Origin: an uncultured Candidatus Peregrinibacteria bacterium
GTDB lineage: Bacteria > Patescibacteriota > Gracilibacteria > Peribacterales > Peribacteraceae
Assembly: GCA_903854335.1 (NCBI GenBank)
Contig: CAINVY010000007.1
Location: 1 to 64,000 of the forward strand
Direction of reading: 5' to 3'
DNA: 64,000 nucleotides
In this document: positions 11,462 to 54,548 of the stretch, piece after piece
Layout of the letters: each line of letters starts with the position of its first letter
Numbering within the stretch: the first letter of the stretch is position 1
The notes under the pieces: generated by a model
Databases searched by the model: none
The model's input: the letters and a program-made list of their open reading frames with translations, nothing else
Told to the model about the DNA's origin: nothing
Translations under genes and position numbers: made by a program

Positions 11462-12448
11462 ATGCAAACCGTCTCTACCCGCAAAGTTGCTCCTGTACTC
11501 ATCGGGCTTCTCCTTGTTGCAGGAACTGCCGCAGTCTTCCTCAGAGGATCCATGCTCACAGCAAGCCTGACCCCCACTGTTTCGCCCGGAACCGCGAGCG
11601 GGTTCACCTTGGAGGATATTTGGAGCAAGATCGCGAACAACACCTACACGGCTGTGAGCGGTCATGCGGCTATGGCGCCGTCGGATACGCCAAGCTCCCC
11701 GACGCTGCGGCACACGGTGGATCAGATTTTCCAAGCCATTCCCACTCTTTCCTCTGGCAGCATCAAATCTGGCGTGGCGTACTTCGGCGTCACGGGAGCG
11801 TACCCGTCCGCTGCGTATCCTCTCCCGACGACGGGCTCTACGGGCACCCCGGCCACCACTTCCAACATCCTCTCCAATTACTTCGCTCTCTCCACGACCG
11901 GCGCAGTGCTCCAAGGCTCCGCCACGGCAGGCGGCCCTCCGTACCCTTCCTGTGCTCCTTCGGGAACGTATCCTACTAACACTGATAACTGCGCCGCGAC
12001 CTCCGGATCTCACTACTCCTTCGCAACGGACGCCAACGGTGTTCTCGAAGTCGCGGATTCCGCCACCAATCTCATCTGGGCGAAGTGCCCTCTTGGCCAG
12101 ACGGGCGATGACTGTTCCGGCGGTTCCACGCTTAATGCCACTCTCGACGGCTCCGACAGTAATCCTTCGGCGGAGGCTGACTGCGAGGCTCTCAACACAG
12201 GTGGCGTCACAGGTTGGAGACTCCCGACGATTGCGGAACTTTCCAGTATCGTCGATTACAATCATTCACAACCCGCTATCAATAGAACCTATTTCCCCAA
12301 TACTCCTGCCGACGACTACTTCTGGTCATCCTCACCCTACGTCGATTACCCGGGTAACTTCTGGCTCGTGAACTTCTACGACGGCGGTACGCTCAACGAC
12401 GACCCGAGCTATACCATCGATGTACGTTGTGTGCGCCCGGCAATGTAA
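11462..12448 (+). CDS. Secreted DUF1566 (Lcl-type C-terminal domain) protein
   Basis: A 328-residue protein with an N-terminal membrane/signal segment (VAPVLIGLLLVAGTAAVFL) and a Thr/Ser/Pro-rich middle. The C-terminal module has TNLIWAKCPLGQ, WRLPTIAELSSIVDY, FWSSSPY and VRCVRP, the hallmarks of DUF1566. That domain occurs in surface and fimbrial-type proteins with a lectin-like fold; binding targets are unknown. The start at 11462 is chosen because it follows a strong promoter and begins the hydrophobic leader; in-frame codons upstream overlap that promoter. Four cysteines in the last 150 residues could form disulfides outside the cell. Confidence 0.85.
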   Translation: MQTVSTRKVAPVLIGLLLVAGTAAVFLRGSMLTASLTPTVSPGTASGFTLEDIWSKIANNTYTAVSGHAAMAPSDTPSSPTLRHTVDQIFQAIPTLSSGSIKSGVAYFGVTGAYPSAAYPLPTTGSTGTPATTSNILSNYFALSTTGAVLQGSATAGGPPYPSCAPSGTYPTNTDNCAATSGSHYSFATDANGVLEVADSATNLIWAKCPLGQTGDDCSGGSTLNATLDGSDSNPSAEADCEALNTGGVTGWRLPTIAELSSIVDYNHSQPAINRTYFPNTPADDYFWSSSPYVDYPGNFWLVNFYDGGTLNDDPSYTIDVRCVRPAM

Positions 12449-14110: not shown

Positions 14111-17100
14111 ATGAAACCATCACTTCTCCTTGGGAACACAACGCATCGGGAGCTCGCAGAGCTTCTGAGGGCAAAACACGAGCTCACGATTTCAGGGGCC
14201 AGTAACGAGACCGCCAAAGCATTGCTCCTGAGCCATCTCCTCTCCTTCCGCCCGCAAGCGACACTTCTCGTGACGCAGAATGCGGGAGGTGCGGAAGCGC
14301 TGCAGCACTGGTTGAAATTCTTCGAGACGCAGACGCATACGCTCATGCCTGTGAAGGATGAGGACGGGAATATTCTTCACGATCGGTTGCAGGTCTTCCT
14401 CACCTTCATGCAGGCGAAGAGTGGCAACGAGGAAGAGTGCGCCGTGTTCGTGTGCGAGCGCGCGACGTGGGATGAGGAATTTCCGTCCTTCGCGGAACTG
14501 GAGAAGGAGAAGCTGACGCTTAAAGTCGGGAAGGACATGCCGTTCACCGCCTTCGTGGAAGATCTCATCGCGCGCGGTTACTCGCATGGGGAGGATCTCT
14601 ACCTCAAGCCCGGAGAATACCGCCGTATCGGCGATACGCTCGACATTTTCCCCATCCAAACGCTTCATCCCTGGCGGGTTGCATTCGATTTCGACACTGT
14701 CTCTCAGATTCTTGTTGTGGATAAGAATGACTTGTCTCAAACATCCGAGGGCGGAAAAACACTCGACATTTTCCCCGCGCGCTTCGATCGCACGGAGGCA
14801 CTCGCCAGACAGATGCCCCCGGGCTCGCTTCTGGTGCTCGATGATCAGGATGACGTCGCCACGTTGCCGAACACCGCCACGCTCCACTTCACGGCGTTTC
14901 CGGAGTCGATGGAGAACCACGCACACCTGCGCTATCTCTCCGTTCTGAAGTTTTACACGCTGACGGATTTTCTCAACGACGTGCGCGACAAGCTCTCGCA
15001 GGAGTGGGTGCTCCTCGTCGTGACGAAGCGTGGGAAGGAGTTGCAGGCCATCCTCCATGAGGAGCATATCGCCTCGCACGAGCACGAGCGCCATCCGGGG
15101 GCGGTCACGTTGATTCCGGCCCATGAGGACGATCTGCTCCCCCACTCTCTCCAGAATCCCGATCTCAAGTGCGCACGTCTGACCGCTCGGGAAATCTTCT
15201 CCCTGCGCAAGGGGGGCAAGCAGCGCAGCGTCTCCAAGCTCGCGCTGGATTTCGTGACGTCCTTGCAGCCGGGGGATTACGTCGTGCATATGGATCATGG
15301 GATCGGCCACTTCGAGGGCATGACGCAGAAGGTCATCGATGATGTGCCGCGCGAGTATCTGGAGCTCACCTATGCGGACAACGACAAGCTCTTCATTCCC
15401 GTCGATCAAGCCGACAAACTCAGCAAGTTCGTGCATGAGGAGGGCGAGGAGCCGACGCTTAACCGTCTCGGCACGATCGAGTGGAAGCGTGTGACGGAGA
15501 AGATGCGCGCCGAGACGAAAGAAATCGCGAAGGAACTTCTCGCGCTCTACGCCAAGCGTGCGCGCAGCAAAGGATTTGCATTCCCTGAGGACGTCGAGAC
15601 GCAGCGCAAGTTTGAAGAGGCATTCCCCTACGAGGAAACGCCCGGCCAACGCGCCGCGATCGCCGATCTCAAGAAAGACATGGAGCGCGATCAACCGATG
15701 GACCGTCTCATCTGCGGCGATGTGGGATTCGGGAAGACGGAGGTGGCGATGCGCGCGGCGTTCAAGGCCGTGTCGGCGGGCAAGCAGGTCGCCGTCGTTG
15801 CTCCTATTACCATTCTTGCCGATCAGCACTATCACACCTTCGTGGATCGCATGAAGAATTTCGGCGTGAAGATCGAAATGCTCAGCCGCTTCCGCACTGC
15901 CTCCGAGCAGCAGGCGATCTTGGAAAAGCTGAGGAAGGGCGATATCCACATCATTATCGGGACGCACCGCCTGCTCCAAAATGACGTGAAATTCCTCAAC
16001 CTCGGTCTCGTCATCATCGACGAAGAGCAGCGGTTCGGCGTGAAGCAGAAAGAGAAGTTCAAGCAGATGCGTGCGAACGTCGACATCCTGACGCTCACCG
16101 CGACGCCGATCCCCCGAACACTCAATCTCGGACTCCATAAATTGCGCGACATCACGACGATTACAACGCCGCCTCCGGGCCGCCTCCCGATCATCACCGA
16201 AGTGCGCAAGTACTCCGATGAACTCACGCGTCAGGCGATTCTCTTTGAGATCAAGCGCGGCGGACAGTGCTTCGTCCTGCACAACCGCGTCGAGACGATC
16301 GATGCATTCTGCGACAAACTCCGGCGTCTCATTCCGGAGGCGAAATTTGTCGTGGGGCACGGACAGCTCTCCCCCGATCAACTCGAGAAGCGAATTCTGG
16401 AGTTCAAAGAAGGCCGCGCGGACGTCCTCGTTTCCTCCACGATCATCGAGAACGGCATCGATCTTCCGCGCGCCAACACTCTCATCGTCAACGAAGCCGA
16501 GCGGTTCGGTTTGGCGCAGCTGTATCAGCTCCGCGGGCGCGTCGGTCGAAGCAAATTGCAGGCGTTCGCGTACTTTCTCTACCACACGCAACGCCTAAAG
16601 GATGACGCCAAGAAGCGCCTCAAAGCCATCGTGGAAGCGTGCGAACTCGGGAGCGGGTTCCAGGTCGCCATGCGCGATCTCGAGATCCGCGGCGCGGGCG
16701 AGATTCTCGGCGCGAGCCAGTCGGGCACAATGCAGACGGTCGGCATCAGTCACTATCTGCGCATGCTCAAACACGCGGTCGACGATCTCAAGAGCGGAGG
16801 GAAGGAGGGGGAGGAATTCGAGGAGCAGGTGGAGATCTCTCTGCCGATCGACGCGTTCATTCCGTCGTTCTACATCCCCGATGAGCAGGAGAAGATTTCC
16901 GTGTACCAGAAGCTCGCGGGAAGCGAAGAGGAAGACGTACTGAAGGAGTTCGAGGCGGATCTGAAAGACGAGTACGGCCCTCTTCCGCCGCAGGTGCTCC
17001 ATCTCTTTTCCATCCTTCGCTTGAAGTTGGCGTGCAAGACGAGCGGCGTGATCCGCGTGAAGGCCGAGGATGGTGGCAGGGACGATCGCGAAATCGTGCT

Positions 17101-30231: not shown

Positions 30232-31521
30232 CTAATCGCAAGCGCTTTGGAGTTCTTGCACCTTCTGCTTCACCTCATCCGCCGTCGCATTCTGCGCGAG
30301 GTCGCCGCTTCCCGTGGTGTAGGGGAAACAGGCATCCTTTGGAAGGATGGTCAGGATGTGATCGAGACGCGCGTTACACGAGCGATTCATGCAGGATCGT
30401 CTGAGGAAGTAGTCGAAGTCCATCACCATGTCCCGCAGGCTGCGGCTGCCAGTACCGTAGTCGTGCGCAAGGCGCGAAAGTGCGCCAATCGTGCCGGTGA
30501 GAGGAACGAACGTCTTCTCGATTTGCTTGGCGTCCACAATACCGCTTTCGATCGTGGCATCCGCTTTCGTTTGCGCGGTGGAGAAGGAACGCGTTTCCCG
30601 ATTGAGTTCCTGATTGAGCACTTGCATCCCGATGAATCCGATGCTGGTGTAGGGGGAAGGTCTCAAGAGTTCCTTGTTCCAGAGAAGATGGAGGAGCGTT
30701 GTGAATTCCCGTCCGGAGATTTCCCAGAAGTATCCCTGCGACCATGTCGTGCTCTGCTTCTTCGCTTCGTCGGGCGGAGTGCATCCTTCCCATTGCGTGG
30801 ACAGAGCCGCGGGACGCCAGCCCTGGGTCTTATCCAGCAGCGCTTGGAGTGCTTCTTTCTCCTTTTCCATGGAATCTTTCAGATCCGTGTTGTTCGCGGG
30901 GAGCATGGAGATCGCCTTGTCGATCATGTCGGGCGTGCAGCCGGAAGCGCCGTCGGCGGAGAGATCGAGGTATGCGGTGTCGAAGGGGCAGAGTTTTTCG
31001 TTCTGGATTTTCTTCGTCGTCGCCGCGGAATCAAACGTCTGCGGGCTGGCCCAGCCCGGATCGGTGTAGCCCTGATGCGTGGCTCCCCACACCAAAATGC
31101 CGTAACGATCGCTCAGGAATTTGTAGAGCGGGTTCAGGAGATTCGCGGCGTCGACATTCCCCTGGCTGTTCGCTTTCTTCAGGAGGTCAGAGACCTTCTG
31201 CATCTCCGCCTCCAACAGTGTTTCGTCCGTGGAGAGGCAAGCGGTGGCATGGGAGAAATCACTCACGGTCAGCGCGCGCATGACTTTCGGATCGAGTGTT
31301 TCGGTGATGGTGGACGTCGTGATGTCGTACCAGTTCTTCTGGAAGCTCGCGTCACCGGACGTCGCGTGCCCCTTGCTCGCGATTTCCTTCTCGGCGTTCG
31401 CGGCCCTCTCGAGCACTCGCTGCACGTAGGTGGAGAGGCCCGTTGGCGTCTGCTGCGCGTCCGCGCGCGGGAGGGCGAGCAGCAGCAGGAGCCCGATGAT
31501 GAAGAATGTTCTGCGCATCAT
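30232..31521 (-). CDS. Secreted operon gene 5: unknown secreted protein, 429 aa
   Basis: Last gene of the five-gene secreted operon. Signal peptide FFIIGLLLLLALPRADAQQ, then a mostly helical protein with no membrane anchor or known domain. Cysteines occur in ATACLSTDE, EKLCPFDTAY, SGCTPDM, EGCTPPDE and the end region RSCMNRSCNARL..KDACFPYTTG. The ATGATG start overlaps the stop of gene 4 by 4 bp (ATGA). The end region recalls parts of genes 2 and 3 (Cys followed about 15-30 residues later by [AG]C[VIF]P). I do not recognise the family; envelope location is inferred from the signal peptide. Confidence 0.75.
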   Translation of the reverse strand: MMRRTFFIIGLLLLLALPRADAQQTPTGLSTYVQRVLERAANAEKEIASKGHATSGDASFQKNWYDITTSTITETLDPKVMRALTVSDFSHATACLSTDETLLEAEMQKVSDLLKKANSQGNVDAANLLNPLYKFLSDRYGILVWGATHQGYTDPGWASPQTFDSAATTKKIQNEKLCPFDTAYLDLSADGASGCTPDMIDKAISMLPANNTDLKDSMEKEKEALQALLDKTQGWRPAALSTQWEGCTPPDEAKKQSTTWSQGYFWEISGREFTTLLHLLWNKELLRPSPYTSIGFIGMQVLNQELNRETRSFSTAQTKADATIESGIVDAKQIEKTFVPLTGTIGALSRLAHDYGTGSRSLRDMVMDFDYFLRRSCMNRSCNARLDHILTILPKDACFPYTTGSGDLAQNATADEVKQKVQELQSACD

Positions 31522-33428
31522 GGGGTCGAGGGAGTGGGACTTGAGACGCTGCATACGGCGCGATCGTCCTGGGGGTTCAGCGGACACATCGCGGTCGGGA
31601 ATGTGCTTGAAGCGAGTGTCTTCAGCATCGCGACGGTGGCGCTCAGGTTCCCCGCAAACGTTGCATTCGCCTGCTCGAGATAATCGCGGTAGAGCGAGGC
31701 TCCGCGTTCGAGCCCCATGGCTTCGGCTTGCTGCCTGTAGTCATCTTCGAGGAGAGGATCACTCACCTGCCCCGGCATGAATCCGTTTCCGGCATCTTGC
31801 ATGTGCGGGTATTCGATTGCCGTCGACAGATCCGGTCCGCAGAGGACGGGGAGTGCGAGCGGAGGCTTGCCGTTGCTCTGGCAGTATTGCGTGTTGAATT
31901 CGTGGAGACGCAGCGCGGGGTTGTACTCCGGAATGTGGGGGAGCGCGATGAGCGGCGATATCTCGGTGGTCTTCGCGGCGGGAGCACTCGCACTGCAGCC
32001 GCTCCAAGGCGCGGTGGTTTCCTGCGAGACGAGGGGGATGCGTCCAGGAGTCAGGCGGTGACCGTAGCTGCGCTCGGCGCACTCGCGGACGAAGCAGGCA
32101 TCTCCGAGGATCGAGTAGGGATAGGTCGCGGTATTTCCCGGCGCGCAGACATCGCCGCCTCCCGCATCATTTCTGAGTCGCGTACAGAGATCGGTGAGGT
32201 CGGCATCGGGGCTCTTCGCCCCCGCTTTCGGTGTGCACGAGGAGAGGATGATGACGCCGGTATCGGCTTTGGGTGCGGATTCCACGCAATCATCCGCCGC
32301 CGAGAGCGTCGTTCGCGCGTGGCACAGATATCCCTGGCTTCCGGCGAGAGATTCACAGAGTCCGCCGCCGCCTTTTTCGACGGTATCCCCGTTCACATTT
32401 TTCTCTGGAGGGGGCGGATAGAGTCCGCCGGGGATGCCTTTCTTCGATTTGCTCATGAGCGAGGGGAGCACAGGTTTGAGTGCCGTATCCCATCGCAAAC
32501 CGACATCGCTTGGGGGCAGATCGGTGATGCCGGCCGTCTTGTCGATGCTCGTGTCCCGGATGTATGCCCAGATGCTGACATTGCTCGTTCCTTTCGTATC
32601 CAGCGGGATGAGGAAGAACGCCACTTCGCCTTTCGAGAGCGGAGGATCGATGCTCGAGGAGAGCGAGGTTTTGATCGTGCTCAGCTCTTTCTCGATCGTA
32701 TCCCACCGCTTGAAGAGGAATCGACGTTCCGTATCGTCGCCGCTCAGTTTATCGGGATCCGTGGAGTCGCTCTTGGATTCCACGAAGTGCAGACCGTACA
32801 CGTAGCGCCACACGGCGGCTACGCGCTCCTCATCGCTCCCGTCCGCCACGAGGGCGTCCAGCGATGCATGCAGCGGGTCGAGAACGGAGGAGGCGTCGTT
32901 GGGTACGGGCATGAGCCGGATGGTCAACTCTGGGTGTTGCGCCACCTGGGGGATGCCCCAGATGCCGAGCGTTTCCCCGTAGGCAGATGTGAGTTTGCGC
33001 GGTTCCAAGCTGAAATCGGAAATTGGATCTTCATAGCTTGTCGCCACGGATTGCAGCCGGTCGCCGAGCGTTGTCGTTTCCATTTCCCGGTCGGCGATCT
33101 TCTGCATATCACTCATGAGGAGGATGCACGCGAGCGTCGATTTCAATTTTTGAGCCGTACAGAGGCTGTCATCCGTGAGCCCGTTCTGGTCTTTGGCGAG
33201 CGCCTTCTTCACCGCATCTCCCGTGAGGGACAGATGCGCTGAGCCATCGAGGTACGAGAGCTTCGCGGCATTCAGCGTGTCCGCGGTGAAGGCGGCAACC
33301 CTATCTGACACCGTGCTCTCCTCGGCGACGAGACTCTGAATTTTATCGAGCAGCACATCTCCGGCGCCATGCGTGGCGCAGGGGATCAGGAGCAGCAGGA
33401 GGCCGAAGATGGTGAGGAATTTTTTCAC
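31518..33428 (-). CDS. Secreted operon gene 4: unknown secreted protein, 636 aa
   Basis: Signal peptide KKFLTIFGLLLLLIPCATHGAG after a GTG start at 33428. This start is preferred because it begins the signal peptide and overlaps the preceding stop as GTGA; the frame is open to 33554. An N-terminal helical part is followed by regions rich in Pro/Gly and about 14 cysteines, many near the middle (GGGGLCESLAGSQGYLCHA, DDCVES, SSCTPKAG). No membrane anchor and no recognised domain. It may share ancestry with gene 5 (both have a Cys-containing helical stretch ending in EMQK or DMQK), but this is weak. Confidence 0.75.
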   Translation of the reverse strand: MKKFLTIFGLLLLLIPCATHGAGDVLLDKIQSLVAEESTVSDRVAAFTADTLNAAKLSYLDGSAHLSLTGDAVKKALAKDQNGLTDDSLCTAQKLKSTLACILLMSDMQKIADREMETTTLGDRLQSVATSYEDPISDFSLEPRKLTSAYGETLGIWGIPQVAQHPELTIRLMPVPNDASSVLDPLHASLDALVADGSDEERVAAVWRYVYGLHFVESKSDSTDPDKLSGDDTERRFLFKRWDTIEKELSTIKTSLSSSIDPPLSKGEVAFFLIPLDTKGTSNVSIWAYIRDTSIDKTAGITDLPPSDVGLRWDTALKPVLPSLMSKSKKGIPGGLYPPPPEKNVNGDTVEKGGGGLCESLAGSQGYLCHARTTLSAADDCVESAPKADTGVIILSSCTPKAGAKSPDADLTDLCTRLRNDAGGGDVCAPGNTATYPYSILGDACFVRECAERSYGHRLTPGRIPLVSQETTAPWSGCSASAPAAKTTEISPLIALPHIPEYNPALRLHEFNTQYCQSNGKPPLALPVLCGPDLSTAIEYPHMQDAGNGFMPGQVSDPLLEDDYRQQAEAMGLERGASLYRDYLEQANATFAGNLSATVAMLKTLASSTFPTAMCPLNPQDDRAVCSVSSPTPSTP

Positions 33429-34171
33429 GGGGAGGGCGGAGAGAGATCTCGCAGCGGCGTTTTCGCGTCCCAGGTTCGTTCGGGGATGCACGCGCTCTCT
33501 TCTGCGAGGAGGCCAAAGATATTGCGGATATCTTTCGAGGCGCGATTGAGACACGTGAACGACCGATCGAGCGGCTGGAGCTTGCTTCGCCCGATGAGCA
33601 ATTGCAGCACTCGCTTCATCGTTTCCCGCGTGGCATCGAGTTTCGTCTGCGCGTCATCCTGTCGGCTCTTCACCTCCTCGCTGATTTTGTCGTAGGTGTT
33701 GGCGATCGATTTGTCCTGCAGCACTTCATTGAGGATGTTGTCGGAACGCGCACGTTCGGCGCAGCCGTACGCTTCCAGATAGTCGAGGAGGATTTGCGGC
33801 ATGTCCGATTCGTCGATGGACACGTCGGCCCATGCGGGCAATTGCTTGGCGAGACTCTGCAGCGCGTCCGAAGCCGTTGCCTTCGCGTCTTCCGTGCAGG
33901 AAATTTTCACGGTCGCGTCGGCGTCGATCACTTCTTTCACATGCGTGCGGAAGATCGTATCCCACTGCATTTCCTTCTCCGGAGGAAAGAGTGTGGGGCT
34001 TGCGCCGCATGCGACGAGCCCCGCTCCGGATCCGGCGGAAGGAGGTGCGCCCGAATCCGCGACATCCCCGCGAAGTATTGTTGCGCCGCGGATTCCTGCG
34101 AGCACGCAGAAGATCAATGCGATCAATCCCGCGGACAGGAGGAGCCGACGGTGGGAATTCTTACTGGGCAC
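33425..34171 (-). CDS. Secreted operon gene 3: membrane-anchored unknown protein, 248 aa
   Basis: GTG start inside the end of gene 2 (11-bp overlap). An N-terminal hydrophobic segment (LLLSAGLIALIFCVLAGI) is either an uncleaved anchor or a signal peptide. The rest is helical with six cysteines outside that segment, including SFTCLNRASKDIRNIF and ESACIPERTW at the end. Smallest member of the operon. No family recognised. Confidence 0.72.
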   Translation of the reverse strand: MPSKNSHRRLLLSAGLIALIFCVLAGIRGATILRGDVADSGAPPSAGSGAGLVACGASPTLFPPEKEMQWDTIFRTHVKEVIDADATVKISCTEDAKATASDALQSLAKQLPAWADVSIDESDMPQILLDYLEAYGCAERARSDNILNEVLQDKSIANTYDKISEEVKSRQDDAQTKLDATRETMKRVLQLLIGRSKLQPLDRSFTCLNRASKDIRNIFGLLAEESACIPERTWDAKTPLRDLSPPSP

Positions 34172-35054
34172 AGTACGGGAGGAAGCAGGAGACGGAGCGC
34201 CATTCGCCGATGAAGTTGGAGACTTGGCGCAGCGGTGAGAGGAATGGGAAGCGGAGTTTTACGAGGAGTGGTTCGAGGAATCCGGCGAATTGTCTCAGCG
34301 TTCGTTGCGCCGCATCCTCGTGCGTGAGGTAGAGCAGTTGTGCCTCCTCGTAGGTCGTGAGCTTCTTGATCACCGGCGCACAGAACGTGCGAGCGGCCAC
34401 GACATCACTGACGGAGAAGATGGGGCTTGGCTGGCACGTCTTGATCACCTTCTCTGCTTCGGGCACGCAGCCGGGGATCGTCACGTCGATGCTATCGCTG
34501 CCGTTCCCTTTCGATCCCACCGGCGTATCGACGGTCTGAGTCACGCCTTCGCAGAAGGATTCCAGACGACATTGGAAGGCGCGGAATCCTTGGAGGATCG
34601 GAGGGATGAGGTCGGAGGTGAGAGCTTTCTGCGTATCGAGGATCCCGGGGCGCACAGACGGATTCTGAGGATCGATGGTGTTCGCTTTCATGAGTGGGTC
34701 TGTCGCCGTTTGCTTGTCCATGTCGTCGTCGGAAACGGCATCCTTTCCATTTGTCACCCATTTCCCTTCCGTGTTCTTGATCCAGGTGTCGCCGACCTCG
34801 TCGACGCGCGTGGCGCCGGCCTTTTCTTCGGCGGCATGACGATTGCCGAAGAGCATGGTGTCAAAGAGGAAGCGTTCCTTTGCCAGTCCCTTGGCGATAT
34901 CGTTCGTACACTGCTCGGCTGCGCTCTGTGGCGAGGAAGAAGACGATGACGAGGATGTCGTGGGGTTCGCGGCCGCCTGCAGACGCGGGGCGGACTGCAG
35001 AAGCGCGAACCCGAGGAGGAAGAAACCGAGGAGGGGCAGAGAGATTTTTTTCAT
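34161..35054 (-). CDS. Secreted operon gene 2: unknown secreted protein, 297 aa
   Basis: Signal peptide ISLPLLGFFLLGFALLQSAPRLQAAA followed by a poly-Ser linker (about residues 33-40). The mature part has Cys in EQCTND, QCRLESFCEG, PGCVPEAE, KTCQPS, TFCAP and at the C-terminus SCFLPYC. Its ATG overlaps the stop of gene 1 by 4 bp (ATGA). No recognised domain. The paired cysteines and lack of an anchor suggest a disulfide-stabilised extracytoplasmic protein. Confidence 0.75.
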   Translation of the reverse strand: MKKISLPLLGFFLLGFALLQSAPRLQAAANPTTSSSSSSSSPQSAAEQCTNDIAKGLAKERFLFDTMLFGNRHAAEEKAGATRVDEVGDTWIKNTEGKWVTNGKDAVSDDDMDKQTATDPLMKANTIDPQNPSVRPGILDTQKALTSDLIPPILQGFRAFQCRLESFCEGVTQTVDTPVGSKGNGSDSIDVTIPGCVPEAEKVIKTCQPSPIFSVSDVVAARTFCAPVIKKLTTYEEAQLLYLTHEDAAQRTLRQFAGFLEPLLVKLRFPFLSPLRQVSNFIGEWRSVSCFLPYCAQ

Positions 35055-37801
35055 GACGAAGAAGACGAGGAGGAAGAGTGTTCCAGCGGTATCGCCGGTT
35101 CGATCTGGAAGACGTGGTAGAGGTCCTGCGGGCTTTGGAGATCGTAGGGGGGCGCCTTGTCGCCGTTCTTCGTCAGCTTTCCGTTTTTGTCGATCGTCGA
35201 TTCCATCGCTTGACTACGCAGCGTGTCGAGCTGCGTATCCTGTGCTGCCTTTGGCAGCGTAATGCGCAGTCGATCTTGTACGTCTTGTTCCCTGAGCAGA
35301 CAGTTGTCATCTCCTTTTGCGCAAGCGGACAAAGACGAGGAGGACATCGCGCCAAATGGTGTAACGTCTTGATGCAGGTACGCGCCCACCGGCGCCCAGA
35401 ATCGCATGAAGACATCCCAGAGCCGCGTCTCAGGATACTGCGCGAGCGCGTTTAGCTCGATCGATGGATCGCGTTCTTGGTTCCAGAAATAGACGAAATA
35501 TCTTTGGGCCAATGATTGTAACTCCGTCGTCTTCGCTTTTAAATCGGTAATGAGCGCTGCGAGATCCGTGCCCGAGAGGGATTGATTCGCAGTCGCGGCG
35601 GCATACTCCTTGCGCACATCGATCGTTTGCTTTGGCTCGGGGAGCGATGGTACGGGTGGTAGGTCGGGAAGTTTCGATCCGTTGTTCTTCAGTGCTGGCG
35701 GATGCGGGAGGTCGAGCGAGACGAGGACGGGCATGAGTACGGGGATCTTCAGCTCAGCTTCATCCGTCGCACCGTCGATGAAAATATCGCTGAAATCGAA
35801 GACGAGGTGCCTGGGGATATCTGGAATGTTCAATGCCGAGAAGGAGCCGGTGATGTTGGTTCCCGCCAACGACGGTGGGGAGTAGATGTTCTCGAGCCAC
35901 GTGAGCGGCGGGGTCGTGCTATCCGCTTTGCAGTACGGTTGGTTGCGGGAGGAGAGGATGGCGGATGCATCTTTCAGGCGGCGCCAGACATTGACGAGCT
36001 CCTGGGATTTCTCCTGGTTGGCGAGGGCATCTTCGTAGGGCTGCATGCGGGAACGCACCCATTCGTCGATGGCCTGCGAGAGCTGCTTCCTGCGATCGAG
36101 CACCGTGGCGATGGACGCGGGCAGACTCGCGCGCAGCGATGCGTATTTGTCGAGGTTGCTCTGGTATTCCTTGAGCTTCGCGATCACCTCATCCGCGCCG
36201 GACGTATCGCCCTTCTGTGTTTTCACCGTTTCCTTCCAGTCTTCCCATTCTTTGATGGAGGCGAGGAGTTCGCTCGGCGAGAGGAGCGGCAGCACGACCG
36301 GCACGGGCTCTTCTTCCATACGGGAGAAGATCGCTTGCCGCAGTGCGCGCTGGACGTTTTCAAGCAGGCCCGGCTGTAGCGAGAGCGTGACGTTCAGAGA
36401 GGCGCCTGTCGCGTTCTCCTTCACTTCGGCACCGGAATCCGCCAAGGCACTCATCGCATCAAGGCGCGGCAGAATCATCTCCACGGTCGGTGGCACTCCT
36501 TGCAGCTTCATCTCCAGGGATTCCAATGCCGTCACGTACTTCGGTGTCTCGCCGAAGGGAGGAGTGGTGTTCGGTGGAGGAATAGTGGGGGTCAGGATGT
36601 TGCTCGCGGATTTCTTCGGGTCGAATCCGAATGCGGCATGCGCGTCGTCTGCGGAGGTCTGCTCATTCGTGGGTTTCAGATCAACGGTGCCGCTGACCTT
36701 TCGATTACTCAGCGAAGCGAATACTTCTTGCGGATCGTAGACGAGGCAGGCGAAGCTGCCGGGATCCGAGAGGTTGAGATCTTCCTGGTACCACGAATAG
36801 CACGCCATCGTTGCGGGAAGATTCTGATCTTCCGTCGTGGTATCCGGAATGTTCGCCAACGTATGCGTGGCGATGTACTTGCGATAGAACGATTGGTAGC
36901 GCGCGCCGTTCGGTGGGACGAAGGAATCGGGAGGGGTGTGATTGGGATCCGAACGGCATTCGGGTCCTTTGCATACCGTGCAGTTCGGCCACTCTTTGCT
37001 CTCACCCTCGGTCCATTTTTGCCTGCAGGCATCCGTCGGAAAATCCACACTCGCGTTTACTCCATTTCCCCACGTCCATCCATAATTATTGGTCAGCCGC
37101 GAGCCGTCTTCGAGCGATTGTGCTTGTTCCTGCGGATCGGAGGTGCACAGATACTTCGTGCCCACGAATGCATAGTCGGATTCGTTCCAGCCCGCGGGGC
37201 AGGTGTTGCAGTCGGGAGTGAAGGAAGGATCATCGTCGTAGGGGTAGGGCTCGGAGGTGTCGTACGTCTGCGTCTGATCTTGCATGATCGGGTCGCCGTT
37301 GGCATCGGTGCCGACTTGTACCGATACGCCTCGCGTACAGGTCGAGACGCGGTAGACCTTGTACTGCATGTTCTGATCTGTGTTCAATTTGTCACAGGTT
37401 TGCTGGCAGTTTGGGAGGCTATTACATGGACGACTGTTCTTGCGCTGATCAGCACACGCGGCGATGTCGTCGCGAATCGCAAGCGCATACCCGGTGGCGT
37501 TGTCGGGATATTGTCTGTCCTTATCTGCTTCGGATGAAATGCCACCGGCAGTGGGCCAGTCATGCGGCTTGAGGGGGAGACCTTCGACGTCGGTGTACGA
37601 ATCGCTCGCGCTCATATCTTTAGGATAGCCGCAGGTCGCGGTCTGCAATTGCTGGGGGATTTCTTCCGTGAGAACGCGATTGATCGTGGAAGAATCTTTT
37701 CCGGAAGGAATGCGATACAGCTTCGCCGCCGCCGCCGCGGGAAGAGCCACGAAAGCGAGCAGGAGAAGGGCCAAAAGCCGACGGCGGAAGTGTGTGTTCA
37801 A
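35051..37801 (-). CDS. Secreted operon gene 1: large cysteine-rich secreted protein, 916 aa
   Basis: TTG start with signal peptide RLLALLLLAFVALPAAAAA. The first 370 residues carry about 20 cysteines, including CNSLPNCQQTC, CNTCPAGW and NCTVCKGPEC. The central part (about 440-640) is long helix, probably coiled coil (RALRQAIFSRMEEEP, EVIAKLKEYQSNLDKYASLR). The C-terminal part ends in a run of eight serines after GLN-poor, Pro-rich sequence. It heads the operon and has an extended -10 promoter 9 bases before the start codon. No known family is evident; the Cys-rich head and long helical body suggest a structural surface component. Confidence 0.78.
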   Translation of the reverse strand: MNTHFRRRLLALLLLAFVALPAAAAAKLYRIPSGKDSSTINRVLTEEIPQQLQTATCGYPKDMSASDSYTDVEGLPLKPHDWPTAGGISSEADKDRQYPDNATGYALAIRDDIAACADQRKNSRPCNSLPNCQQTCDKLNTDQNMQYKVYRVSTCTRGVSVQVGTDANGDPIMQDQTQTYDTSEPYPYDDDPSFTPDCNTCPAGWNESDYAFVGTKYLCTSDPQEQAQSLEDGSRLTNNYGWTWGNGVNASVDFPTDACRQKWTEGESKEWPNCTVCKGPECRSDPNHTPPDSFVPPNGARYQSFYRKYIATHTLANIPDTTTEDQNLPATMACYSWYQEDLNLSDPGSFACLVYDPQEVFASLSNRKVSGTVDLKPTNEQTSADDAHAAFGFDPKKSASNILTPTIPPPNTTPPFGETPKYVTALESLEMKLQGVPPTVEMILPRLDAMSALADSGAEVKENATGASLNVTLSLQPGLLENVQRALRQAIFSRMEEEPVPVVLPLLSPSELLASIKEWEDWKETVKTQKGDTSGADEVIAKLKEYQSNLDKYASLRASLPASIATVLDRRKQLSQAIDEWVRSRMQPYEDALANQEKSQELVNVWRRLKDASAILSSRNQPYCKADSTTPPLTWLENIYSPPSLAGTNITGSFSALNIPDIPRHLVFDFSDIFIDGATDEAELKIPVLMPVLVSLDLPHPPALKNNGSKLPDLPPVPSLPEPKQTIDVRKEYAAATANQSLSGTDLAALITDLKAKTTELQSLAQRYFVYFWNQERDPSIELNALAQYPETRLWDVFMRFWAPVGAYLHQDVTPFGAMSSSSLSACAKGDDNCLLREQDVQDRLRITLPKAAQDTQLDTLRSQAMESTIDKNGKLTKNGDKAPPYDLQSPQDLYHVFQIEPAIPLEHSSSSSSSS

Positions 37802-37810
37802 AATCTATAG

Positions 37811-37819
37811 ATTATAGCA
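37811..37819 (-). promoter_or_regulatory. Extended -10 promoter of the secreted five-gene operon
   Basis: Minus strand TGC-TATAAT (hexamer 37811-37816), followed by 9 bases and the TTG start codon. Predicted transcription start is 2-3 nt from the start codon. No good -35. The remaining 220 bp up to ssb is A/T-rich and shows nothing else I can name. Confidence 0.65.
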
Positions 37820-52807: not shown

Positions 52808-52874
52808 AGTCGTCAGATTGGTACCATGCATTCGGGACGCGGAGTACACTTGCAGTACTTTTTTCCGATGCATC

Positions 52875-54548
52875 ATGCGCAAACGCACTCTCCTCCTTGC
52901 TCTCGGTGTTCTGATTCCGCTCGCGGCGAACGCGCTCGATTTCACGGATGTCAGTTCCCGCTACAAGGACGCACCCTTTTCCACGTCGGAAGCGGCGGGC
53001 ATCAGTCTCCTGACGTCGATCGGCGCGGTACAGGGGAATCCCAACGGAACATTCACGCCTTTGCGCACGCTCAACAGAGCGGAATTTGTGAAGATTGCAT
53101 TGGCGAGTCATGCAGGAACGCCCGTCAGTTCTTCCGATGCCGCATCATGCTTCCCCGATGTCCATGCGGGGGATTGGTTCAGTTCGTACGTTTGTGTCGC
53201 CAAGAAGAGCGGTGCCATTAGCGGGTATCCGGATGGACTCTTCCATCCCGAACGGTCGGTGAACTACGTGGAGGCGCTCAAAATTCTCTGTGAACTGAAT
53301 GCGATTTCCTCTGCGACCGCACCTGCGGATCCGTGGTATCAGAAATATATTCTGGCGGCGCGGGCAGATGGCCTCCTTCTCCCCTCTCCCGTTTCCTACG
53401 GCGATTCTCTGACGCGCGGCCAAATGGCCAGACTCGCAGCGGGCTTCGTCGCCTTTGCGCAGGGGCAGCTGGCGCAGTACCGTCAGGCGGAGCTCGGAAT
53501 TTCTTCATCGAGCGCTTCTTCGAGTTCATCATCTTCCAGTTCCAGCGTTTCCAGTACATCTTCTTCCTCGGTATCTTCCTCGTCCTCGAGTCTCTCATCG
53601 CAGAGTTCCTCGAGCGTGAGTGCGGTGGAACTTCCCGCTCGTAGTCACTTCCTGCTCATCGGCCAACTCAGTAAACCCATCTCCAATGCGACGTTCAGAT
53701 CCCCTCTGGAGCCGGTGCGCGTGACCTCCATCATCGTGACGCTCAAGAGGAAAATAACGTCCATCGATTCGCTCGAAATTGTCGATCAGAACGGCACGGA
53801 TATCGGCAGGCTCCCACTCGATGATGTCTACGATCCCAACGATCTCACGTATCGTGCCCTATTTACTGGAACAGGAGCGTATGAACTTCCGAAAGATGTG
53901 GAGCGCACGCTTGCGGTAGAGGCGAGAATGAAGTCTCGGGATGAGGGCGGCATATCGGGAGACCTCGTCCAGGTGGACACGATTCAACTGATAACGCAGG
54001 GGGAATGGAGTCAGGAGAGTCAGGGTGCGACCCAAACGAACTTTATATTCCCGATGCATCAAACCACGCAGGGAGACATTCTTTCGGTGACCAACGCGAT
54101 GGCTGCGAACGGATCGTTGCCGGTGGGGTCGGCGCAGATGCTCGCGGCGTTTACGCTTTCGGGGATGGCCGTTTCCGGCGCCCCTTCACCACAAGTGCAA
54201 AATATGGATTTCCAAGTGAGTAAATCTTCTTCCGTTACCGTCACGAACTGGCAACTCGGGACGCAGAACAGCGCCGAGCGTATTCCCTGTTCCGTTAACG
54301 ACACGATCGTGAGCTGTCTCACCATTCCCACGGATATGGGAACCGTGGATGTGACGCAGCCGCGGACGTTGCAGCTCTTTGGTGATGTCGCTGTCGATCA
54401 AGGCGCGACGAATCGAATGCTCCAAGTGCAACTGTCCGATGCGGGCGCGATCGGAACGAATGGCGCGGTGCGATGGACGGACGGTGCCACGTACTTCACA
54501 TGGACGGAGCTTCAAAGCCCCCTCGCCAACGGACCTCTTTGGAGATGA
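52875..54548 (+). CDS. S-layer homology (SLH) domain protein with poly-Ser linker
   Basis: 557 residues. A signal peptide (KRTLLLALGVLIPLAANALDF) is followed by three SLH modules (about 22-195; ITSIGAVQGNPNGTFTPLRTLNRAEFVKIAL, CFPDVHAGDWFSSYVCVAKKSGAISGYPDGLFHPERSVNYVEALKIL, WYQKYILAARADGLLLP), which bind pyruvylated wall polymers in other bacteria. A poly-Ser linker spans about 213-255, then a 300-residue beta-rich C-terminal region without recognised domain. It is a likely wall-anchored surface protein, possibly the S-layer or a display protein. TACACT at about 52844 is a possible -10. Confidence 0.88.
   Translation: MRKRTLLLALGVLIPLAANALDFTDVSSRYKDAPFSTSEAAGISLLTSIGAVQGNPNGTFTPLRTLNRAEFVKIALASHAGTPVSSSDAASCFPDVHAGDWFSSYVCVAKKSGAISGYPDGLFHPERSVNYVEALKILCELNAISSATAPADPWYQKYILAARADGLLLPSPVSYGDSLTRGQMARLAAGFVAFAQGQLAQYRQAELGISSSSASSSSSSSSSSVSSTSSSSVSSSSSSLSSQSSSSVSAVELPARSHFLLIGQLSKPISNATFRSPLEPVRVTSIIVTLKRKITSIDSLEIVDQNGTDIGRLPLDDVYDPNDLTYRALFTGTGAYELPKDVERTLAVEARMKSRDEGGISGDLVQVDTIQLITQGEWSQESQGATQTNFIFPMHQTTQGDILSVTNAMAANGSLPVGSAQMLAAFTLSGMAVSGAPSPQVQNMDFQVSKSSSVTVTNWQLGTQNSAERIPCSVNDTIVSCLTIPTDMGTVDVTQPRTLQLFGDVAVDQGATNRMLQVQLSDAGAIGTNGAVRWTDGATYFTWTELQSPLANGPLWR

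Follow-up and report, generated by a model that had tools for sequence, protein, structure and literature searches.

The 64,000-nt stretch of DNA analysed here (the window) belongs to contig C7 of a genome of 1.17 Mb, assembled in 13 contigs with a completeness of 97%, from a tiny, probably host-dependent CPR bacterium. Searches with DnaE group it with Candidatus Peribacteraceae/Peregrinibacteria (identities of 89–71%). Five consecutive genes, referred to as g1–g5, are present on the minus strand of the window, i.e. g1 (35051–37801; 916 aa), g2 (34161–35054; 297 aa), g3 (33425–34171; 248 aa), g4 (31518–33428, starting at 33428; 636 aa), and g5 (30232–31521, starting at 31521; 429 aa). Our reading of the ORFs agrees with the initial annotation of this locus in the sizes and coordinates of all five genes and in the overlaps of 4, 11, 4, and 4 bp at the successive junctions. 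Next to the block lie ssb, murB, and gltX, followed beyond gltX by a cyclophilin gene, murG, and ftsW; dnaE borders it at the opposite end. In 25 of the 28 loci identified in the same family (Peribacteraceae), murB is located upstream of the block.

All five proteins start with a basic and hydrophobic, signal-like segment, as had been annotated, and similar N-termini are found in nearly all orthologues. None of the window proteins shows a clear second transmembrane segment; g2, g4, and g5 are predicted to be secreted and g3 to be secreted or anchored. The g1 protein comprises a signal peptide, a Cys-rich head (approximately residues 57–352), a core of ~400 aa (approximately residues 437–830), and a C-terminal poly-Ser stretch, which is real. 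The coiled-coil body previously assigned to this protein has moderate support, namely helices at residues 509–620 in an AF2 model with a mean pLDDT of 45, where the pLDDT is mostly 63–83. Direct reading of the C-termini of the window proteins revealed no LPXTG-type signal with a transmembrane segment, and no SLH domain was detected at E ≤ 1 in the five proteins or in all 28 family members of g1, leaving the window g1 with no SLH domain, LPXTG motif, or C-terminal anchor. Sortases are encoded elsewhere in the genome.

The initial annotation regarded the five proteins as members of unknown families and proposed profile and structure searches, and these found no known family. Searches of Pfam, NCBIfam, and PHROGs with the five window proteins gave nothing significant, and PDB profile searches with all five alignments gave no match. 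The AF2 models of g1 and g4, built from eight sequences each, are of low confidence (mean pLDDT of 45 and 49, respectively), and structure searches with these two models were uninformative: Foldseek yielded no match at E ≤ 0.001, and the best VIA Z values were 4.3 and 4.4. One alternative is that the block encodes the periplasmic or external part of an export or host-contact machine, such as a T4SS-like or uptake apparatus. Several secreted, Cys-containing proteins encoded in one operon do recall the accessory genes of F-type T4SSs. However, neither Tra/VirB domains nor a partner ATPase were matched by Pfam or NCBIfam models, and ATPases, channels, pilin motifs, and T4SS Pfam models are all missing from the block, which was not joined by genes of this kind in any locus read. 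In addition, the N-termini of the five proteins are ordinary signal peptides without the prepilin motif G|FTLxE. We therefore consider such a machine very improbable. The function suggested previously, 'an appendage, attachment device or uptake machine', was narrower than the evidence allows, and its last part is unsupported because nothing in the block resembles a pilin, an ATPase, a channel, or a transporter. The more general proposal of a surface or envelope role is supported, as relatives of g1 carry SLH wall-anchoring domains (see below).

With g1 as the protein query, 30 of 59 relatives (counting the window genome) gave matches, and all of these are members of the same family. Among the 27 family loci in which g1 is complete, 26 have the five genes side by side on one strand and in the same order. 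At three of the four junctions, overlaps of the ATGA type (4 bp) prevail in the family loci, although start codons were picked by a rule favouring short gaps and signal peptides, and the overlap counts lean that way. In an evenly drawn sample of 57 family genomes, the g2 profile matched 49; some of the misses are at contig ends (G019), and others look real, occurring in the near-complete genomes G008, G011, and G026. Between the window and G001, the protein identity is 67–76% and dN/dS is about 0.15–0.22, indicating that all five are real genes under purifying selection, and the five genes evolve faster than dnaE or ssb. Conservation at the levels of order, coupling, and selection goes beyond chance. 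A scattered arrangement of the genes in relatives had been named as an observation that would speak against a joint system, and the order was found to be kept both within the family and across the class, which supports co-expression of the genes as one unit. The fixed stoichiometry also claimed does not follow, since overlaps alone are insufficient to show it.

A single promoter at 37811 had been proposed for the five genes. An extended −10-like element, TGCTATAAT, is located at 37819–37811 on the minus strand and is kept in locus L032, but no −35 element was found at this site, no Shine–Dalgarno sequence precedes g1, and a consensus scan detected no strong sigma-70 promoter before g1, with TGCTATAAT scoring below the pass level. 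As the element ends 9 nt before the TTG start of g1 (the two together spanning 37799–37819), the g1 mRNA would be near-leaderless, and TGCTATAAT is thus a possible, weak candidate for a near-leaderless operon promoter. Motifs similar to this −10-like element are located 14–22 nt upstream in several relatives.

The description of the five proteins as Cys-rich holds in part. Their enrichment is mild, with Cys contents of about 1.9–2.7%, compared with ~1.5% in the other ORFs of the window; a value of 1.67% is reported for Peribacteria proteomes (PMC4736985). The cysteines themselves, however, are invariant: nine in g1, all eight in g2 (in 28 family members), all five of the mature g3, ten in g4, and all eight in g5 are present in every aligned family member. 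This fixation suggests that the cysteines of g1–g5 form disulfides. As candidate disulfide machinery, the genome has four DsbA-like thioredoxins and a VKOR homologue, the latter matching just at the family cut-off.

Outside Peribacteraceae, weak matches to the g2 profile were obtained in two families of the class, f9 and f11 (f1–f33 are working labels for the families, and the class was named from record titles and code use). The f9 loci, when read, showed the same five-gene order, with a gene for a giant protein as the first gene. Profiles derived from f9 led to loci in f5, f18, f20, f26, f27, and f30, and the N-terminal domain of the giant led to those in f2, f15, and f16. In total, this order recurs in ten or more further families of the class (f2, f5, f9, f15, f16, f18, f20, f26, f27, and f30). 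Comparisons by hhalign link the family profiles to their counterparts elsewhere with E values of 1.7e-8 for g2 (against the f9 homologue), 1.7e-5 and 2.8e-5 for g3, 1e-3 and 8.9e-7 for g5, and 2e-17, 4e-12, and 3e-16 for the core of g1 against the giants. The g4 proteins of f9 and of the other non-window families match one another strongly (E = 3.5e-27), whereas g4 of Peribacteraceae matches that of f9 in the signal-peptide region only (E = 1.7e-4; 0.03 against others) and is tied to g4 of other families only by position and signal peptide; a scan of the genome collection with g4 alone found nothing, and the g2 alignment contains no segment with sufficient conservation for a scan of this kind. 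The fifth gene in f2 and f15 was likewise recognised by position and signal peptide only. In one locus (L100, 1505–9376; G191), the g4 position is occupied by a gene whose product has 2,623 aa and contains eight repeats of DUF4215, and thus g4 can become giant too.

The genes flanking the block vary among the families and include murD/murJ-like genes (read from sequence in f9), aspS, uvrA, and others; therefore, the conserved order does not reflect general synteny. The giant is found without g2–g5 beside it in f3, f6, and f10, and in f11 g2–g5 are located on another contig. The cassette is thus widespread, but not universal.

Full-length giant first genes from six genomes encode proteins of 3,915–5,609 aa, in which an N-terminal domain is combined with Ig-like/invasin-like, FG-GAP, TSP3, and SLH domains in varying sets. 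SLH domains are present on the g1 giants of f9, f18, f20, f26, and f27. The ~400-aa core of the window g1 is homologous to the middle of the giants, and judging from this shared segment, the window g1 is a short family version of the class-wide giant. Of the 16 genomes searched from the class outside Peribacteraceae, 15 contain the N-terminal domain of the giants (A13), three of them with in-frame UGA codons, and the domain was absent from each of the 24 genomes searched from Peribacteraceae. Across 380 genomes sampled from the whole phylum, this domain was confined to the class. It gave no match in Pfam or PDB. We had presumed a resemblance to gingipain/C25, perhaps without the catalytic residues, but this identity was dropped, as it has no Pfam or PDB support and no His or Cys is invariant. 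In the N-termini of several giants (L198–L203 and L092), this class-specific domain has the pattern 'GVVLIGDVPLPVV...FPYTDF...EIWHGVI'. A 4,494-aa relative of the giants is encoded at L225 (2097–15581), where g2–g5 were not recognised beside it; this genome seems to read UGA as a sense codon (code 25).

The SLH giants of relatives also raise the question of whether the proteins form an S-layer-like coat or an extracellular matrix that has no particular part in cell contact. With 23 SLH matches in the genome of the window, a protein coat is likely; one SLH-domain protein (558 aa) is encoded in the window itself, at 52872–54548 on the plus strand. However, a single cassette copy in each genome, with four partners dedicated to it, does not resemble the pattern of a bulk coat protein. 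In contrast to SLH-anchored S-layer and surface proteins (PF00395), with which gene 1 of the cassette in other families shares the anchoring domain, neither the window g1 nor any other of the five proteins carries SLH. It is improbable, in our estimation, that the cassette serves merely as such a coat.

Of the 27 family g4 proteins, 17 contain a Cys-framed module with the pattern HELVHA...CC..E, and 12 of these g4 copies have an intact HExxH. It is found, for example, at 11853–12410 in the family g4 locus L043 and at 14178–14687 in L055. The module weakly resembles Peptidase M76, with an E value of 4e-5 that does not reach the curated cut-off, and differs from the M76/DUF6782 metallopeptidases in its Cys framing. 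It is absent from the window genome, including g4, and from the genus to which the window belongs. In G028, the module is located in g1 instead of g4, and this movement between g4 and g1 suggests that the two proteins act together. The argument is weakened by G008, in which a copy is carried by an unrelated, non-cassette surface protein; for the same reason, the module was rejected as a cassette-only marker. An apparent match between g1 and g4, tried as a sign of paralogy, actually reflects the module lying in g1 of some genera, and comparisons of g2/g3, g1/g4, and g5/g4 revealed no common domain beyond the signal peptides.

A wall-maturation or protein-folding unit, in which g2–g5 would be secreted chaperones or processing factors for a large surface protein or for murein, could account for the presence of this metallopeptidase-like module in g4 of most genera, as well as for murB, murG, and ftsW near the block and the murD-like genes in f9. 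Giant secreted proteins, moreover, commonly have dedicated helpers. On the other hand, the block is intact in the window's genus and others that lack the module, domain searches of the five proteins found no peptidoglycan-binding or hydrolase domain, and Peribacteraceae retain g2–g5 despite the reduction of the giant. We regard this explanation as unlikely, albeit worth bearing in mind.

We favour, with a probability of roughly 0.6, the reading that g1–g5 form one multi-protein surface complex whose members are secreted together, stabilised by disulfides, and associated with the wall, and which arose by reduction from an SLH-giant ancestor. The conserved operon, the signal peptides, the invariant cysteines, purifying selection, and the homology of the g1 core to the SLH giants are shown by the sequences, and the murein genes beside the block also speak for this reading. 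The operon would be read from a promoter abutting g1, for which the sequence evidence is weak; translation of g1–g5 would be coupled, and the proteins would be exported through Sec and oxidised outside the membrane, assembling outside the cell next to the wall. In the ancestral form, a giant SLH-anchored protein may have extended Ig-like and FG-GAP domains outward, with g2–g5 as its dedicated, disulfide-locked partners; in present-day relatives, the giant would still anchor the complex to the wall and contribute the adhesive domains that face outward. Peribacteraceae appear to keep g2–g5 and the core of the giant only, with a different Cys-rich head, the anchor having been lost. Their anchor is perhaps provided by another of the many SLH proteins of the genome, which is speculation. 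Most likely, the complex would be a surface structure by which the cell contacts or attaches to other cells. We infer the physical complex, its location at the wall, the direction from giant to short form, and the attachment role; attachment to hosts in particular is plausible from the biology of the lineage (PMC4736985, PMC8080830, and PMC11452946).

Judged against the open-access literature, this is probably a conserved surface complex that had not been described before. Large extracellular proteins of Peribacteria have been proposed to function in attachment in the main text of PMC4736985, which does not describe the five-gene block. Among them, the large Cys-rich proteins of Candidatus Peribacter riflensis are of the same lineage, exported, Cys-containing, and without a known family, but as given there they average 1,655 aa with 7.2% Cys and include a 14-gene cluster, whereas the window proteins are of 248–916 aa with about 1.9–2.7% Cys and are encoded in a fixed five-gene order. 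Giant surface proteins have similarly been proposed for attachment in Candidatus Vampirococcus lugosii (PMC8080830), and these and the huge proteins of Peregrinibacteria (PMC11573180) are from the same CPR clade, surface-localised, and equipped with adhesion-type domains. The window g1 is short by comparison and shares only the ~400-aa core with the class-wide giants, and the open-access text of these two papers describes no conserved operon with partner genes.

A bolder version, in which the wall-anchored giant and four disulfide-locked partners would be a class-specific machine of Gracilibacteria/Peregrinibacteria/Peribacteria, serving as the host-gripping organ of dependent or predatory CPR cells and reduced in Peribacteraceae, is put forward tentatively, being possible yet doubtful. 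The means by which CPR bacteria grip their hosts have long been debated, usually with reference to type IV pili, and a single-copy cassette with an order kept in much of a class and without any known protein family provides named, testable candidate genes. The class-wide giant is also present in families with in-frame UGA. UGA recoding has been reported in Gracilibacteria and Absconditabacteria, the latter including cultivated predators (PMC11452946), and the hypothesis is thus testable in living co-cultures.
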